Of a stretch of DNA of 64,000 nucleotides, positions 1,647 through 59,279 are shown one piece after another. The stretch lies in contig OU696576.1 of NCBI GenBank assembly GCA_916048095.2, positions 5,871,664 through 5,935,663 of the forward strand, read 5' to 3'. The first letter of the stretch is position 1; each line of letters opens with the position of its first letter. The notes under the pieces were generated by a model that was not told the origin of the DNA, searched no databases, and was given only the letters and a program-made list of their open reading frames with translations. This DNA is from Sacculina carcini. Its lineage: Eukaryota > Arthropoda > Thecostraca > Sacculinidae. The translations under genes and the position numbers were made by a program.

Positions 1647-4600
1647 ATGGCTTCTAAGGAAAGAAAAGTGGACGCCGAGAATGGGGAGTAAAGTACTTCT
1701 TTGTGGAAACAAAGGACCAGAAAGCTAGTTATGTGATATGTAGCGAAAGTGTTGCCGTTCTGAAAGAGTACAATATTAGGCGTCACTATGAAACAAACCA
1801 TCTATCAACATATTCAAAGTTTTCTGGAAAGTTACGCTCTGAGAAAAATGAGTCCATGAAACGTGGTTTAGAAACTCAAAGAAACGTCTTCACGAGAAAG
1901 TTTGCTGAAAATTAATCTGTCACTCGTACAAGTTACAAAATAGTGCATAAGATGGCAGTCCGAGGAAAACCGTTTACTGATAGCAACTTCGTCAAGGCGT
2001 GTATGATGGAAGCAGCAAATGACTTGTGTCCTGAGAAAGCCGATTTGTTAGGAAGTATTAGCCTTTCTTAAGTTCAGTTGTGCGGAGAACAGAAGAAATT
2101 AGAGAGAACATAGAGCTACAGATACGTGAGAAAGCTAGGAACTTCTTGTGGTATTCTCTGGCGCTGGATGAGTCCACTGATATCTCGAGTACGTCACAAC
2201 TTCTCGTGTTCATTCGTGGTGTCAATATGGACTTTCAGATAACAGAAGAGTTGGCATCCGTTTGCAGCATGCATGGAACAACAACTGGACAAGACATTTT
2301 CATGGAAGTGCAGAAAACTTTGCAAGACTATAACCTTCAGTGGAATCAGCTTCGAGGTGTTGCAGTTGATGGAGGTAAAAACATGGCTGGAGGGAGGAAG
2401 GGTCTGGTGAGGCAGATCAGGACTCAGTTGGAAGATCTTCAAATTCCAGGCGCTCTGTTCATACACTGCATCATAGCACTCTGTGGAAAGACTTAGATAT
2501 TTCTTGTGTACTGAAACCAGTCGTTTCTGTTGTGAGCTTCATTCGGGGACATGCACTCAATCACCGTCAGTTCCAGGCTTTTCTTGAAGAAATTCATTCT
2601 GATTTCTGTGACTTGTCTTATTACACAGCAGTGAGATGGCTCAGCTGTGGTAAAGTCATGTTCCGTTTTTACAAGCTCCGAAACGAAATAGATGTTTTTC
2701 TCACTGAAAACGATAGAGCCGATCCACAGCTGTCAGATTCTATCTGGCTGTCAAAGTTGTCTTTTTTGGTGGACATCACATCCCACATGAATGAACTGAA
2801 CATGAAATTTCAGGGAAAGGATAACCTCATCTGTGATCTCTACATAATCATCAAAGGATTTCGGAGAAAGCTGTCATTGTTTGAAGCACAACTGGAAGGG
2901 AAAACTTCTCTCATTTTCACTGTTTCAGATAGTTTTGCGCTTCAATCGCTGAAGATGTCAACCTCGATTTTCCAAAAAAGATTATTCGTGACTTGAAGAA
3001 GCATTTTTTGGAGATATTTTCAGATCTCGACAGAACTGAGAGTGACATTCTTCTGTTCCAGAATCCGTTTGATTGTAACCTTGATGATGTGCCAGTTGAA
3101 CTACAGTTGGAGCTCATTGATTTGCAAGCAAATGACTTGTTGAAAGAGAAGCACTGAGAAAGAAAACTTGTCGAATTTTACCGCTGCTTACCTGATCCTG
3201 AGTTTCCGAAATTTAAGAAATTTGCCGCTGGTATGGCATCAGTGTTTGGAACAACTTATGTCTGTGAGCAAACATTTTCAAAAATGAAGTATGTGAAGTC
3301 AACACGTCGAATGAGATTGACTGATGAATAGGGCTGTCAAAAAAGTAACCTAAAAACCAGAAAAAAGTAACTTTATTTTCGAGAAAAAGTAACCTAAAAA
3401 AGTAACCTAAAAATAACCTATGAGTTGTAATGTTATTATTACTTTTGCATCGTTTTATCACATGTTTATCACGCCTTTGCTGATTAGTGCGCTATAGGAA
3501 ATACACGGTTTGTTTGTTTGTGAACATAAAAAGCAACCTAATAACCTATAAAAAGTAACCAAAAATAACCTAACCTTCGTAAAAATAACCTTCAAAAAAG
3601 TTCAATTTCTGTTTGCAGTTCTGAAGGAAGAAAATACACCATTCCTTCTTTTCTATCCTCTTTCCGAGTTGGTACTATTTTTCTATCCTCTCTCCGATCT
3701 GGTACCATTTTTACAACAAACCACCAAAAGTCTCTTAATATTATTTGGCTAACATCGCAAAAAGGAGCATAACCATCAAAATGCAATTTAAAGTGGAAAG
3801 CTAATACAAATGCGAAATACACTACTTGCTAATGTAATTATTTTTAGTAATGGTCGCAATAATGTTCTTTATATTCTTTCAATGAAACTTGTTATCAAAT
3901 AGAACGTACTACAGCTTGTATTTTAGTGTGAGCCTAAACACTACAAGCATATGTAGCACCCTGTGCTCACTGTCTTATAAATGTCAAACGTGGGAAATGG
4001 CGCTATATCACGCCCTGAAAATCACGTGCTAATTCCTGTTCAAGTAAATTGGTACTGTCAAGTGCTACAGTGCAGTATCTGGTATAGAGAGCTCAAACAT
4101 CGTACTATACCACGCTCCATACATCTCACGACACCCTTCGGTTCGTGGACATTTCCTAAAATGGAATGATGCTATCCTGTGTACCGAAAAACGTATAAAT
4201 ATCGAGTAGCACGGATATTAAGGTGCATATCAATTGCTAAATCCTAACAGCAGCAACTTTGGCATTTCTTGATCTTCAGACCTTATATTCCATCTCTTTT
4301 CCTATTTCATCCTCATATATACAGTTTTTGTGCCTCTTATCTGCAAAAAGTCACCAAACTTCGTGGTAAACTTACCTAATAACCAGAAAAATAACAAAAG
4401 GTAACCTGAAGATAAAAAAGTAACCTAAAAGCAAAAAAAGTAACCTAACGATGAAAAAGTAACTTTTGGTAACCTAATAACTTTTTTAATAATTATCGTA
4501 CACAACTTTTTCATGCAGTTTTAGGCAGCTTATGAAAAAGTGACCTTTAGGTGAAAAAGTAACTTTATTAACTTTTGACAGCCCTACTGATGAACATTTG

Positions 4601-5159: not shown

Positions 5160-5375
5160 CCGGTCTTGAGGCCCCCGACGCCAGCTCTTAGTGCGGTGAT
5201 GTTGGTGGCGGTGGCGGTGGTGGCCGTGGTGGTGGTGGTGGTGGTGGTGGTGGTGGTGGTGGTGGTGAGGGCGGCGGACGGTTCGCCGTGACCCTGCTGT
5301 ACCAGAGACACGGCAGTACCGATACCACGCACCACAATGCCCGTCTCGCCTTCCAAATCGAAATACTGCCGATAA
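5160..5375 (-). CDS. C2CD5: C2CD5 exon 5 (with poly-Thr tract)
   Basis: Minus-strand exon with acceptor GTTCAG and start at 5375; donor GG|GTGAGT after 5160. It opens with one base that completes the Gly codon from exon 4, then encodes YRQYFDLEGETGIVVRGIGT, closely matching the family's FDLEGESGLVVR block (YbjQ-like region). It continues into a homopolymeric stretch of 14 Thr codons (GGT repeats on the plus strand, about 5197-5267) and ends ALRAGVGGLKTG. Length is 216 nt; entry and exit phases are both 2. The frame is fixed by the conserved block, so the overlapping poly-His and poly-Pro frames are shadows. A (TG)n tract precedes the acceptor. Confidence 0.85.
5197..5267 (-). repeat. (ACC)n coding microsatellite, poly-Thr
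   Basis: A GGT/ACC trinucleotide run with a few interruptions, read as ACC (Thr) in the C2CD5 frame. Fourteen consecutive Thr codons are followed by ATTATATN-type residues. Triplet phase keeps the gene open whatever the copy number. Confidence 0.9.
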
Positions 5376-5531: not shown

Positions 5532-7140
5532 TTACATATTTTTGAAGGAACTTAAACTTCTAGCTTCAACTATTTTGCTGTCTAATTGGTTCCACTTATC
5601 TACGCTCCTAAACGGGAAACTATACTTTTTACATCTTTTCGACAACGTGTTTTCCTCAGGTTTTTTTAAATGTCCTCTACGCACATTTCCTTGAAAAACT
5701 AATCCGATGTCGTCTGTGTTGACCGTGTCATTTATGCATCTATACATGTTTATTAAATCACCTCTTTCTCTCCTCTCACCAAGCTTGGGTAATTCAATTT
5801 TCCTCAATCTGTCCTCGTAAAACATGTTTTTCAAGTTTGGTACCAATTTTGCGGCCAGTCTTTGAATCTTTTCTATTTTCTCTATATGTCTCACTTCGTG
5901 TGGAGACCAGATTACAGCTGCGTATTCGATTTTTGGCCTAATTAGAGCTATCATGATTCTTCTGAACATATTCTCATCCATGTAGTTGAATACTCCTCTC
6001 GTTTTTTAAATAAGTACAAAAGGTGAACGGTGCTGTCCAGATCGTTTGTTATATCATTGATATATATCAGAAACATTATTGGTCCGAGCACAGAACCTTG
6101 TGGCACCCCACTTTTCACCCGCTTCCACGAAGAAGCCGCTCCCCTCACAGTTGTACTCCTTTTTCTATCGGTTAAGTAATGTTCCATCCATTTCAATATT
6201 GGTCCTTGTATTCCTCCACAATACTCCAGTTTCCACAGAAGCATCCTGAATGGGACCTTGTCGAAAGCTTTGCACAAGTCCAAGTATATGCAGTCCACCC
6301 ACTTGTCCCTCTCCTGTACAACATCAATAATTTTGTTGTAAAAGAATAAAAGACTCGACACACATGATCTTGATTGTCTAAATCCGTATTGTGAATTTGA
6401 CAAAACCTTTTCTCTCTCCAGGTGTTTTACCCACTGGTCCTTGATGATTTTTTCACACACTTTACATATCACGCTGGTCAGTGATATAGGCCTGTAGTTG
6501 GATGACTCCTCTTTCGAACCCTTCTTGTGAATTGGAACAATGCTCGAACATTGCCATTGTGAAGGAACTTCACCCAGGCGCAAGCTAGTACATACGACGT
6601 CATACAATGGTTCCATCAACTCTTCCCTGCATTCCCTGATAATGCTCCCCTCTATTCCGTCTGGTCTAACCGATTTCCCATTCTTTAACTTCGACAGTCT
6701 CTCAATCAGATCTTTCTTAGATAAATACACATCTCCCATAGGCCTACATTTCGGAAAGATTCGACTTCCATCAAAAGGACTTTCATCAGTGAACACCATA
6801 TGAAATATATAATTCATAATTTCGCAGATTTTCTCTGGTTCAGTAGTGGTCTCGCCTTATGTTGAATTCTTTCGATGCCCACGTTATTTTTCATCTTTTC
6901 GTTGACATACTTGTAGAACATCTTCGGTTCTTTTTCACATTTTTCAACTGTACTTTTTTCATAATTCATTGTTTCTTCTCGTCTTATTTTCACGTAATTG
7001 TTTCTGGCTCATTTGTACTATTTCCAGTGCTCATAAGTATTTCTCTTTCGCAATATGCTCCATGCTTTTTCTTTGCCCTCTCTTGCTTTTTCACACCTTT
7101 TGTTGAACCAAACATTTTTCTTGGTGTATGATCTTTTTAT
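5532..7140 (-). mobile_element. LINE fragment (Jockey/CR1-type reverse transcriptase), internally deleted
   Basis: The minus-strand frames encode, from about 7140 down to 5532, the linker before the polymerase (NVWFNKRCEKAREGKEKAW), reverse-transcriptase blocks NYRPISLTSVICKVCEKII, LDLCKAFDKVP and SGVPQGSVLGPIMFLIYIND, then, after a break, the C-terminal region (IALIRPKIEYAAVIWSPHE, YEDRLRKIELPKLGERRERG). The catalytic (F/Y)xDD box and about 150 residues around it are missing, and several stops are present, so it is dead. It lies in intron 4 of C2CD5 in the same orientation. The copy at 25289-26440 is the same family. Confidence 0.9.
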
Positions 7141-7448: not shown

Positions 7449-7665
7449 CCGATGACCGCGTTGCTGCCGGCCTCAATCACCGACACGCCGATGCGACGCT
7501 GCAGTTGGCCGGACAATTTGCAGAACAGCGCCTGTCTCGCCTCGTTGGAGGCGCGCGGAGAGCGGATTTTGTCGATCCACTGGTACTCGGGGTCATCATT
7601 GACCACCAGCGCCGCCACGAAGCCGGTCATGCTGGCGACACGAGCTCCGCCCGGCACGCCGGCGC
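7449..7665 (-). CDS. C2CD5: C2CD5 exon 4
   Basis: Minus-strand exon with acceptor TCGGCAG, start at 7665, and donor GG|GTCAGT after 7449; 217 nt, entering in phase 1 and leaving in phase 2. It encodes AGVPGGARVASMTGFVAALV, then VNDDPEYQWIDKIRSPRASN and EARQALFCKLSGQLQRRIGV, and ends SNAVIG. The block NDDPEYQWID.IR.PRASNEAR with the GNAVIG-like end is diagnostic for the C2CD5 region after the C2 domain. The residues before TGFV are more Gly/Ala-rich than the family average. The acceptor choice is supported by the exact phase match to exon 3 (A+GC = Ser). Confidence 0.92.
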
Positions 7666-7848: not shown

Positions 7849-7995
7849 TGGCGAAGAAATGAACTCCGCACGACGACTGTTTGAACTTGTTGAAATCGGT
7901 AAACAGGTCAACTTTGACCATCACGTGAATCTCGCCACGGATGCCGTGCAGAGTGTCGTAGATCGGAATCCAGCCGGATATCATGCTCGGCGCGT
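7849..7995 (-). CDS. C2CD5: C2CD5 exon 3 (end of C2 domain)
   Basis: Minus-strand exon with acceptor GTTTCAG, start at 7995, and donor A|GTGAGT after 7849; it leaves in phase 1. It encodes APSMISGWIPIYDTLHGIRG, EIHVMVKVDLFTDFNKFKQS and SCGVHFFA. This matches the last strands of the C2CD5 C2 domain and the following SSCGVKFF motif. The acceptor requires a phase-1 exon 2, which the obvious exon 2 donors do not give (see that entry). Confidence 0.9.
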
Positions 7996-8722
7996 CTGAA
8001 ACAGCGCCAACGGAGCGGGGCGGAAGAGACACATCAACAGAACACGGTATGTGTTCGAGTCGGGCCCAAAATCATAGCTGGGTCTTGATCCGCACAAATA
8101 TAGGCACAAAACCGCCTATATCGAGCCAAATATCGGTGCAAAATAAGACGAGCTCACTTTCCCAGGAATCACTTTGAAAATATATCTAGTTATTTTAGTT
8201 ACAAATGCTAATATTCCCAGCAAACCAAATTTAACACGAAAAACGTGATCAAATATATCATCAGATGTGCAATACTAGTGGGTTAACAGGTGCGCCAGAT
8301 CAGAATATCAATCGACACAACACAACATCAATCGACACAGCAAAAAACATCATAGACCATTAGTTTACAACCTTGTGACATATTACGACAAGAAAGTAGC
8401 CTGCAATCACCGCTCAACAAACGGCTGCAGAAAACCTCAATATAATCTGATATCAATTATTTTTATAGATCATCGATTATAAGAATTCATGGAAAAAATA
8501 TACACAATATTAAAACATCCTGCTAATATGTCCTCTGGGCACGCAGACCCTAAACGTTACCAGATTATCTTGTGATGGTCAGGGAGCATGACTATGAGAC
8601 TCCTAGTGTACCACCAGTGAAAGGCCTCTAGCGTACCACATGTTGCCAACTGCTGTCACAGACCAAGCCGACGAGCAAACGACAAAAAAGACAGAAAACA
8701 AGCGCCGAAACACAGTCCCACC
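7996..8722. other. C2CD5 intron 2, no recognised feature
   Basis: Between exons 3 and 2. AT-rich with no coding frame, RNA gene or inverted-repeat element that I can support. Confidence 0.6.
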
Positions 8723-8728
8723 GTGCAC

Positions 8729-8866
8729 TTGCGCTCCCTCGCACCGCTCCGACAACAACAGGGCACTGAGGTTGAGGTAGACCTTGCCGATGGCGTCGTG
8801 CGCCGAGTACGTGTCGTGGTCCATAACGCGCAGCTGCACACACTCGTCCTGAAGCTCGGCGTCGTC
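8729..8866 (-). CDS. C2CD5: C2CD5 exon 2 (C2 domain core; 3' end uncertain)
   Basis: The minus-strand frame DDAELQDECVQLRVMDHDTY followed by SAHDAIGKVYLNLSALLLSE matches the Ca2+-binding loop 3 and following strand of the C2CD5 C2 domain (DHDTYSANDAIGKVY in the family). The acceptor is either TTGCAG (exon from 8866, giving FE-DDAELQ) or six bases earlier at 8872; a long (TG)n tract precedes both. Possible donors are GT after 8745 (phase 2), after 8729 (phase 0) or near 8718-8722 (phase 1). Only the last matches exon 3, and it adds residues relative to the family. The exon is certain; its last 30 bases are not. Confidence 0.8.
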
Positions 8867-8878
8867 CTGCAACTGTCA

Positions 8879-8879
8879 A

Positions 8880-8911
<32 letters not shown>

Positions 8912-8945
8912 ACACACACACACAAGCGCGCGCACACACACACAT
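8879..8945. repeat. (CA)n microsatellite at C2CD5 intron 1 acceptor
   Basis: CA/CG dinucleotide run on the plus strand, i.e. (TG)n on the C2CD5 coding strand. It lies directly upstream of the exon 2 acceptor and occupies the place of a polypyrimidine tract. Confidence 0.9.
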
Positions 8946-9095
8946 TTTATTTATTTTATTTTCTTATTTTTGTCTGCGCCACGTCTTGTGGAGATAAACC
9001 AACTAAACTAAAACTAAAAAACACACGCACACACACATGATCAGTATTGACCTATAGAGAATAAACGAATATTATATGTACAATAAGTCCAAACT

Positions 9096-10494
9096 CGAAC
9101 CAGTCACCTCTCACCTCCAACATCAACCAGTCACCTCTCACATCCAACATGAACCAGTCACCTCTCACATCGAACATGAACCAGTTACCTCTCACATCCA
9201 ACCTGAACCAGTCACCTCTCACCTCCAACATGAACCAGTCACCTCTCACATCCAACATGAACCAGTCACCTCTCACATCCAACATGAACCAGTCACCTCT
9301 CACCTCCAACATGAACCAGTCACCTCTCACATCCAACATGAACCAGTCACCTCTCACATCCAACATGAACCAGTCACCTCTCACCTCCAACATGAACCAG
9401 TCACCTCTCACATCCAACATGAACCAGTCACCTCTCACATCCAACATGAACCAGTCACATCTCACATCCAACCTGAACCAGTTACCTCTCACATCCAACA
9501 TGAACCAGTTACCTCTCACATCCAACATGAACCAGTCACCCCTCACATCCAACATGAAGGAGTCACCCCTCACATCCAACCTGAACCAGTCACCTCTCAC
9601 CTCAAACATGAACCAGTCACCTCTCACCTCCAACATGAACCAGTCACCTCTCACCTCCAACATGAACCAGTCACCCCTCACATCCAACATGAAGGAGTCA
9701 CCCCTCACATCCAACCTGAACCAGTTACCTCTCACATCCAACATGAACCAGTCACCTCTCACATCCAACATGAACCAGTCACCTCTCACATCCAACATGA
9801 ACCAGTCACCTCTCACATCCAACATGAACCAGTCACCTCTCACATCCAACCTGAACCAGTCACCTCTCACATCCAACATGAACCAGTCACCTCTCACATC
9901 CAACATGAACCAGTCACCTCTCACCTCCAACATGAACCAGTCACCTCTCACATCCAACATGAACCAGTCACCTCTCACATCCAACATGAACCAGTCACAT
10001 CTCACATCCAACCTGAACCAGTTACCTCTCACATCCAACATGAACCAGTTACCTCTCACATCCAACCTGAACCAGTCACCTCTCACATCCAACATGAACC
10101 AGTCACCTCTCACATCCAACATGAACCAGTCACCTCTCACCTCCAACATGAACCAGTCACCTCTCACATCCAACATGAACCAGTCACCTCTCACATCCAA
10201 CATGAACCAGTCACATCTCACATCCAACCTGAACCAGTTACCTCTCACATCCAACATGAACCAGTTACCTCTCACATCCAACATGAACCAGTCACCTCTC
10301 ACATCCAACATGAACCAGTCACCTCTCACATCCAACATGAACCAGTCACATCTCACATCCAACCTGAACCAGTTACCTCTCACATCCAACATGAACCAGT
10401 TACCTCTCACATCCAACATGAACCAGTTACCTCTCACATCCAACATGAACCAGTCACCCCTCACATCCATCCTGAATCGGCCACATCTCACCTC
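9096..10494 (-). repeat. 27-bp minisatellite derived from the C2CD5 exon 1/intron 1 junction
   Basis: About 51 head-to-tail copies of a 27-bp unit. On the C2CD5 strand a unit reads GTGAGAGGT followed by GACTGGTTCATGTTGGAT. Exon 1 ends GACTGGTTTAGGTTTGAG followed by intron GTGAGA, so the unit equals 18 nt of exon end plus 9 nt of intron start. The last unit overlaps exon 1 itself. Variants (GAG or GAT before GTGAGA; CATGTT or CAGGTT) recur in blocks offset by multiples of 27 (for example 5, 8 and 20 units), indicating unequal exchange. No unit breaks the 3-base phase, so long frames stay open in several registers on both strands. Confidence 0.95.
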
Positions 10495-10668
10495 AAACCT
10501 AAACCAGTCGGAATTCCACTGTGGGTGCAGCGTGCGACGACAAACGTCCGTCTTCTGCACGACGCTGCCCAGTCGCACCTCGACGAACGCGTCGGTCGTG
10601 TCGTTGGCGCGGTCCATCACCGGCAAATTGCGCCCGGCCAGTACGCGCACCTTCACTTTGCTCGGCAT
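10492..10668 (-). CDS. C2CD5: C2CD5 exon 1 (N-terminus of C2 domain protein)
   Basis: The minus-strand ATG at 10668 starts MPSKVKVRVLAGRNLPVMDR, continues ANDTTDAFVEVRLGSVVQKT and ends HPQWNSDWFRFE at the donor GAG|GTGAGA (10492/10491); 59 codons, phase 0. It is nearly co-linear with vertebrate C2CD5 (MPGKLKVKIVAGRHLPVMDR, NPQWNSEWFKFE), a C2-domain, Ca2+- and lipid-binding phosphoprotein implicated in GLUT4 vesicle fusion downstream of AKT. The acidic loop residues Asp-19 and Asp-25 are present. Exons 2-5 follow leftwards on the same strand; the later two-thirds of the protein lies outside the window or in candidate exon 6. The donor is the first of a tandem array of donor-like sites. Confidence 0.95.
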
Positions 10669-54344: not shown

Positions 54345-54918
54345 TGTAGTGTGAAGTGGAGATGCTTGCGCATTAAGGCATTTGTATCAGCTGACTGTTT
54401 GCGGTGCAGTGTGTCGAGGCGTGGCTTATAGCCTGCGCGTGCGGGTAGCCTGCGTGTGCGTGTGTGCGAGCGTGCATGTATGCTTGTGTGTGAACTTGCA
54501 GGCGTTGATGACGTATTGGCGTATTGTTTTCTGATTGGTTGATTATTGGATGAATGTACAAACGATCGCCTGTATCGGGCGATTCTCAACGCGTGAACTG
54601 GAGAGTGAATGTTGGGCAGTGTGTGTGAAAGCGTGCGGCGGTGTTGTGTTGTGTTGAAATGGGATTTACGGCGGTCGCGGTGGTTTATTGAGTGGTTCGT
54701 TCACTCACGGGTTATTGTTACCCGGTGGTTTATTGAGTCGTTTGTTCACTCACGGGTTACTGTTATCTTTTGTTATTATCTAAGTATTTATATTCGTTCA
54801 GTCATTCCGAGTTTATTCGAGACTGTAATTACACGTTTCCTAATTTCTGGTTGTCGATCTACCGAGACATGACGGAGAACGAAGCAACAATGACGGTTGC
54901 GGGGAATGCGGAACTACA
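54345..54918 (+). repeat. 5' LTR of retrotransposon 2
   Basis: Starts TGTAGTGTGAAGTGGAG and ends GCGGAACTACA. Contains a tandem pair of about 45 bp (GGTGGTTTATTGAGT...ACTCACGGGTTA) at about 54679-54769, and the gag ATG at 54869. Confidence 0.96.
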
Positions 54919-58710: not shown

Positions 58711-59279
58711 TGTGAAGTGGAGATGCTTGCGCATTAAGGCATTTGTATCAGCTGACTGTTTGCGGTGCAGTGTGTCGAGGCGTGGCTTATAGCCTGCGCG
58801 TGCGGGTAGCCTGCGTGTGCGTGTGTGCGAGCGTGCATGTATGCTTGTGTGTGAACTTGCAGGCGTTGATGACGTATTGGCGTATTGTTTTCTGATTGGT
58901 TGATTATTGGATGAATGTACAAACGATCGCCTGTATCGGGCGATTCTCAACGCGTGAACTGGAGAGTGAATGTTGGGCAGTGTGTGTGAAAGCGTGCGGC
59001 GGTGTTGTGTTGTGTTGAAATGGGATTTACGGCGGTCGCGGTGGTTTATTGAGTGGTTCGTTCACTCACGGGTTATTGTTACCCGGTGGTTTATTGAGTC
59101 GTTTGTTCACTCACGGGTTACTGTTATCTTTTGTTATTATCTAAGTATTTATATTCGTTCAGTCATTCCGAGTTTATTCGAGACTGTAATTACACGTTTC
59201 CTAATTTCTGGTTGTCGATCTACCGAGACATGACGGAGAACGAAGCAACAATGACGGTTGCGGGGAATGCGGAACTACA
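58706..59279 (+). repeat. 3' LTR of retrotransposon 2
   Basis: 574 bp; by eye I find no difference from the 5' LTR. Preceded by the purine-rich GATCAGGGTGGGG, a plausible polypurine tract that is also pol coding sequence. Confidence 0.95.

Follow-up and report, generated by a model that had tools for sequence, protein, structure and literature searches.

The window analysed here, a 64,000-nucleotide (64-kb) stretch of the Sacculina carcini genome, carries on its minus strand the beginning of a C2CD5 gene. Its first five exons were placed by reading frame, splice signals and homologues, not by RNA, and the boundaries given below are predicted in this sense.

10492..10668, minus strand: C2CD5 exon 1, coding part from ATG to donor, 59 residues, first half of the C2 domain (Pfam C2 42.3 bits, cut-off 22)
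10490..10491, minus strand: putative genuine 5' splice site, GAG/GTGAGA (slash, exon/intron boundary), placed by the zero-repeat junction, which gives the conserved protein, and by a U1 duplex of -9.7 kcal/mol
8873..10491, minus strand: intron 1, 1619 nt, of which the array takes up 1395 nt; acceptor ACAG ending at 8873
8722..8872, minus strand: exon 2, second part of the C2 domain (LQDDAELQDE...), placed by Pfam C2, frame, splice signals and homologues
7849..7995, minus strand: exon 3, boundaries predicted from frame, splice signals and homologues
7449..7665, minus strand: exon 4, C2CD5-type YbjQ domain (Pfam PF23025 50.9 bits, cut-off 29.1), boundaries predicted
5160..5375, minus strand: exon 5, with an in-frame ACC (Thr) microsatellite and the donor CGG/GTGAGT, the GT of which sets the predicted end at 5160

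The two domains of the C2CD5 family, an N-terminal C2 (PF00168) and a C2CD5-type YbjQ domain (PF23025), both score above their cut-offs, and the best homologues are named C2CD5, which confirms the gene identity proposed in the initial annotation of this DNA. A search with the joined residues 1-265 yielded 6465 proteins at E <=0.001 among 7992 scored candidates, the best 120 of which were examined; the top named matches, the C2CD5 proteins of the cirripedes Pollicipes pollicipes and Amphibalanus amphitrite, are 79% identical to the host protein. A protein search with exon 3 by itself retrieved no candidate, probably owing to length limits that keep out full-length relatives. A quick tree was built from the host protein and 16 others chosen from the best 120 of the 6465 homologues; in it the host groups with a protein labelled P0007 (SH-aLRT 97), and this pair joins the two thoracican barnacles (99).

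Further exon-like C2CD5 pieces were recognised by eye outside the window. Within the coding exon 5, a GGT/ACC trinucleotide array at 5195-5267 gives rise to a threonine run, and intron 4 contains, at 5532-7008 on the minus strand, frames that resemble a LINE reverse transcriptase; frames resembling a hAT-family transposase lie at 1658-3331 on the plus strand (both judged by eye from the list of open reading frames). Also inside the C2CD5 gene span, an open frame of 682 codons extends on the minus strand from 889 on past the window start. It could be a lineage-specific long exon; the Amphibalanus records vary in length in the same part. Elsewhere, the same 45-bp, 2-copy repeat is found at both 54678-54765 and 59039-59126, which points to either a duplication within this region or a mobile element present at both places.

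A single large minisatellite is detected in the window by Tandem Repeats Finder; it occupies 9097-10509, has a period of 27 and 52.3 copies, and shows 93% matches. It had initially been described as an array of about 51 copies of 27 bp, adjoining exon 1 on the same strand and spanning 9096-10518; strand, neighbourhood and copy number are borne out, while the bounds are to be corrected. The detected array begins at 10509, inside the exon, with neither a gap nor a shift of register relative to the genuine boundary. Cut in register from the exon along the minus strand, it gives one copy that spans the boundary (unit 0), then 51 intronic units that are complete, and a partial one at the end:

10483..10509, minus strand: unit 0, founder-like copy, consisting of 18 nt from the end of C2CD5 exon 1 and the first 9 nt of intron 1, and matching the consensus at 22/27 positions
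9106..10482, minus strand: units 1-51, complete, intronic, 27 bp each, all with GTGAG in register
9079..9105, minus strand: unit 52, partial terminal copy (DWFEF), without GT at the donor position and with TTT kept as in the exon
Donor G at 10140, 9924, 9654, 9627, 9600, 9384, 9303, 9222 and 9114, minus strand: the nine GAG/GTGAGA units, k = 13, 21, 31, 32, 33, 41, 44, 47 and 51

On the minus strand, unit 0 reads GACTGGTTTAGGTTTGAG in its exon part and GTGAGATGT in its intron part, and the array consensus likewise comprises 18 exon-like nucleotides, GACTGGTTCATGTTGGAT, followed by 9 intron-like ones, GTGAGAGGT. The splice signal is kept throughout: all 51 intronic units have GTGAG, continued as GTGAGA in 46 and as GTGAGG in 5, so that the earlier statement that each unit keeps GTGAGA holds for the five-letter core and not for the final A. 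Together with the preceding three letters, the contexts are GAT/GTGAGA in 37 units, GAT/GTGAGG in 5 and GAG/GTGAGA in 9, the last figure giving an exact value to the 'several' of the initial annotation. The 53 units represent 14 distinct sequences, the commonest of which occurs 24 times. While the interior is homogenised, unit 1 (21/27 identical to the consensus) and the partial unit 52 (16/27) are more diverged, as is expected at array ends. A search for a higher-order repeat gave a best lag of 20 units, at which 13/30 units are identical; shuffles attain this value at their 95% point, and no such repeat is claimed. The intronic array contains AGGT 60 times, and its sense strand is rich in G (GC skew 0.68); as a matter of speculation, R-loops could promote instability of the array.

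Several properties of the unit point to the exon/intron boundary as its source. The 22/27 identity between the exon unit and the consensus is matched nowhere else: across both strands of the window, none of the 125,146 other 27-mers exceeds 17, and the best of 200,000 shuffles reaches 21. Part of the GTGAG core would be common to any donor, and the 18 exonic nucleotides were therefore also compared separately; they match at 14/18 positions, a level attained at 1 of 125,164 other places in the window and by 7 of 200,000 shuffles. Besides this match in letters, the exon copy lies exactly adjacent to the array and in phase with it. The exon unit differs from the consensus at five positions (9, 11, 15, 18 and 25), and at all of these except position 9 the exon letter persists as a minority state, in 10, 1, 9 and 4 intronic units, respectively. 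When 14 states out of 81 are drawn at random, at least four of the five exon-specific letters survive with P 0.0027, or 0.0006 if unit 1 is left out. When the 264-Mb host genome was searched, with very common words skipped and counts being lower bounds, all 17 matches listed sat in the C2CD5 array locus. The identity, adjacency, phase and surviving exon letters make it close to certain that the array originated by tandem duplication of the exon-1/intron-1 junction, an origin that had first been put forward as the simplest one, with chance similarity as the check to be made; the 22/27 match exceeds what either the window or the shuffles provide.

The exon end at this junction is ancestral. DWFRFE is present in all six barnacle proteins among the homologues listed, in agreement with the ancestral exon end (DWFxFE) assumed from the outset. 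If exon 1 is joined directly to the acceptor at 8873, the host protein reads WFRFE-LQDDAELQDE and has the conserved length; the six barnacle proteins have WFRFE-VQDDA at this place, most of the remaining rows have WFRFE-VDD or something close to it, and among the best 120 of the 6465 homologues the spacing between FE and (L)QDE is five residues in 114 and six in 6. None of these best 120 has an insert at the exon-1/exon-2 junction, in a list where long inserts would be under-represented because it is the top of the ranking. The C2 profile score, too, is highest for the zero-repeat junction with acceptor 8873 (75.2 bits) and lower with one unit (68.2) or two units (66.9) included. P0007, a protein of 935 aa from a 3246-bp contig, also lacks an insert at this junction; it probably represents a transcript, since 3246 bp for 935 aa is too compact for introns of host size. 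At 8867-8873, tandem acceptors are seen, ACAG and a possible second one, TTGCAG, 6 nt downstream, and with the acceptor 6 nt further the C2 score is 72.1 bits, compared with 75.2 at 8873. At the start of exon 2, the barnacle proteins (VQDD) are one residue longer than the remaining homologues listed (VDD or similar); perhaps the acceptor shifted in the ancestor of the barnacles.

Minisatellite-like tandem duplications of exon/intron boundaries have been named 'mirages' in amphioxus, where, according to the accessible part of the report, they affect the two globin genes BflGb6 and BflGb9 (PMC3087553). The C2CD5 array is a real, well-formed minisatellite of this type, and C2CD5 is probably spliced mainly or only from the donor at 10491, with the array being removed as part of intron 1. 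In such a scenario, 27 bp across the exon-1/intron-1 boundary would have been tandemly duplicated in one barnacle lineage, and the duplicate would have expanded within the intron until there were 51 complete copies, with replication slippage or unequal exchange as the probable mechanism and with the units becoming partly homogenised. The genuine donor at 10491 would be joined, mainly or solely, to the acceptor at 8873. Most repeat donors would have lost the G at position -1 and thereby become weak, while the nine full GAG/GTGAGA units could serve as donors at a low level. Normal splicing from the first donor is likely; by this route the array would leave with intron 1 and the normal C2 domain would be kept, and since the genuine first donor would still yield the normal protein, harm done by the array is probably small. 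Starting from the register, the unit states, the single locus in the genome search and the zero-repeat junction in relatives, all of which are observed, we infer the order of events, a neutral turnover of units and the donor in use. Three points weigh against this mirage-type reading. Nine units are identical to the genuine 9-mer; all five GTGAG columns, and ten more of the 27, show no variation, with a chance probability of 0.037 for columns picked after seeing the data, which could hint at constraint; and the repeat units of human IFI6, considered below, set a precedent in that such units can be used.

How well the repeat donors might compete was estimated as the calculated pairing to the 5' end of U1 over 9 nt. 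The genuine donor and the nine GAG/GTGAGA units pair with -9.7 kcal/mol, as against -4.4 to -4.9 kcal/mol for the 42 GAT units. The five predicted C2CD5 donors cover a range from -5.2 to -11.0 kcal/mol, and 42/51 repeat donors are weaker than the weakest of these. The array additionally contains 42 GAG/GTRACT sites (-6.6 to -6.7 kcal/mol), which are out of frame because they lie 7 nt downstream of the core, and nine CAG/GTTGGA sites (-6.9 kcal/mol). These values do not support the notion in the initial annotation that every unit offers an equal in-frame donor. Of the ladder of n x 9 residues that it derived from this, the phase is retained, as all 51 cores are in phase, but given the weak GAT donors and the stronger out-of-frame GAG/GTRACT sites, use of every step is not predicted by the sequence.

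The open frame across the array, which had been pointed out correctly for the minus strand, tells us little about coding use. Three of the six frames are open, one on the minus strand and two of the three on the plus strand, the latter two equally so because 27 is a multiple of 3. Among the distinct changes between units, 1/14 is synonymous and 13/14 are non-synonymous; the 81 possible single changes in the unit comprise 13 synonymous, 64 non-synonymous and 4 stop changes. The open minus frame was therefore rejected as evidence of coding, and the variation within the array bears no sign of protein selection. With the array protein (query residues 60-320), a search of a 5.8-billion-sequence database gave one match, a protein with a collagen Pfam domain (E 0.0067; 7990 candidates scored), an absence that carries little weight because the host's own protein is not among the relatives listed.

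Among the other explanations, the one that fares best holds that some units are real 5' splice sites and give rise to C2CD5 isoforms with 9k additional residues after DWFRFE. Judged by donor strength, the likely steps would be k = 13, 21, 31, 32, 33, 41, 44, 47 and 51 (+117 to +459 residues), and the introns left would range from 1268 to 242 nt. The path is free of stops and in phase at each of the 51 core donors, nine units contain the genuine 9-mer, and the junction aligns with the FKV/PYSEL stretch of synaptotagmin-1. This stretch presumably links two strands as a loop that lies apart from those binding calcium. Human IFI6, as far as the accessible text goes, uses two downstream repeat units as donors (PMC4526556). 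We nonetheless consider such isoforms unlikely: the nearest strong unit lies 351 nt downstream, 42 of the units pair weakly, 42 out-of-frame GAG/GTRACT sites would be in competition, an insert is found in 0 of the best 120 of the 6465 homologues, the single collagen-domain match is all that the array protein retrieved, and array variation is mostly non-synonymous. An extended version, in which a germline-variable donor repeat sets the length of the C2 loop and the individual copy number defines a menu of isoforms through the nine full-strength in-phase copies (k = 13 to 51, +117 to +459 residues), appears somewhat more doubtful still. If true, this would give arthropods a counterpart of IFI6, with an invertebrate VNTR that exerts its effect via donor choice.

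Considerably less probable is a role of the array as a decoy or recruiter that binds U1 snRNP many times without being cut, and in doing so slows or boosts intron 1 splicing or guards against early 3'-end formation. For this, the array would provide 51 GTGAG cores in 1.4 kb of a first intron, with invariance of the five GTGAG columns (P 0.037), but most of these cores pair weakly with U1. The array RNA also folds well (378 nt, z -6.35, with 0/100 shuffles as good), and the repeat donors are predicted to be more base-paired than the genuine one, with a mean unpaired fraction of 0.18 vs 0.43; 0/51 are as open as the genuine donor, and that of unit 32 is nearly so (0.429 vs 0.433). With DNA parameters, the structure is almost nil. 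Compared with controls for repetition, however, the hairpin is unexceptional: when units were shuffled and then repeated in tandem, folding was as good in 3.7% of 300 cases with mononucleotide shuffling and in 6.7% of 300 with dinucleotide shuffling, 152/1500 random 5-change variants of the exon unit equal it as well, and among the 243 possibilities at the same five positions the real letters rank 41st. On account of these controls, an RNA hairpin selected to silence decoy donors is not upheld.

It would take a rare coincidence for an unrelated intronic minisatellite to resemble the exon end by chance, or else an assembly artefact, and we give little credence to either. Tandem arrays are indeed common in the host genome; 55 non-overlapping ones (period >=9, >=4 copies, simple-sequence-like arrays included) occur in 274 kb, examined in 22 pieces made up of the window, five neighbouring and 16 sampled stretches. 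Only 2/55, however, carry GTRAG in the consensus unit on either strand, namely the C2CD5 array and a CA-rich one, and the 22/27 identity, the exact adjacency and phase and the surviving exon-specific states all speak against the idea. On the rarity of boundary minisatellites this survey says little, as it covers 0.1% of the genome and exons are not annotated in the sample. A 10-kb stretch, L023, consists mostly of a 9-bp ATTTTCTTT satellite.

Least credible of all is a translated repeat protein from transcripts ending or reading through in intron 1, which would comprise exon 1 followed by VRGDWFMLD some 50 times (538 residues in all, with the stop at 9052-9054): a single frame is open from the ATG across the array, but the two plus-strand frames are equally open, only 4/81 single changes would create a stop, and the one search made (7990 candidates scored) returned no such protein.

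The mirage-type class of minisatellite is already known, and as far as our searches go the present array is new to C2CD5 and to arthropods; no boundary minisatellite of a barnacle or other arthropod was found in the literature searched, which left out most subscription papers. Boundary minisatellites have been found in amphioxus and human genes, and a 51-copy example from a barnacle lineage suggests that animal groups far apart from each other give rise to them. The locus places 51 near-identical donor cores behind one genuine donor, in two strengths that differ by one base (GAG or GAT), and constitutes a natural test of how the spliceosome chooses among equal 5' splice sites. If the units are used, this would be a repeat that tunes protein length via splicing; if they are unused, it would be a clean demonstration of position beating sequence.

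The minisatellite of human IFI6 (6-16, G1P3) reportedly has a 12-bp unit present in 26 copies. In the title of Turri, Cuin and Porter (1995), as quoted by citing papers, it 'provides multiple splice donor sites', and the accessible text of a later source states that two downstream repeat units serve as donors (PMC4526556), a use that sets IFI6 apart from the C2CD5 array as we know it, from its letters. Variable tandem repeats in human segmental-duplication genes are likewise of minisatellite type and, where they lie at exon-intron boundaries, can give alternative splicing; unlike the C2CD5 array, they belong to primate segmental duplications, come with transcript evidence and, taking together every variable repeat of the study, have a mean of 4 copies of 30 bp (PMC2812944). 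In Drosophila, introns are described as having been gained where AG/GT proto-splice sites were duplicated in tandem; exonic sequence with a splice motif is tandemly duplicated as in C2CD5, whereas the C2CD5 array sits in the first intron and no new intron is shown (PMC2891723). Minisatellites in a first intron are also known from an earthworm gene, the accessible text on which does not describe a derivation from an exon (PMC12783039).

For amphioxus, mirages are further documented in TnC and PGBD5 (PMC3902484) and in Adh3, with units of 10-72 bp (Canestro 2002, cited in PMC3087553). As far as the accessible parts of these reports go, the hosts differ, being cephalochordates, and BflGb6 repeats the acceptor side, with 3 or 6 units of 150-160 bp depending on the haplotype. 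Splicing and length instability were examined there, and RT-PCR suggests that regular splicing is undisturbed by the mirages (PMC3087553), whereas the C2CD5 array is known from the sequence of one assembly. BflGb9, in turn, is a donor-side duplication. The amphioxus mirages and the C2CD5 array have in common, within the text available for the former, a tandem duplication across an exon/intron boundary, many units that carry splice signals, and a homogenised interior from which the units at the edges are excluded (PMC3087553).
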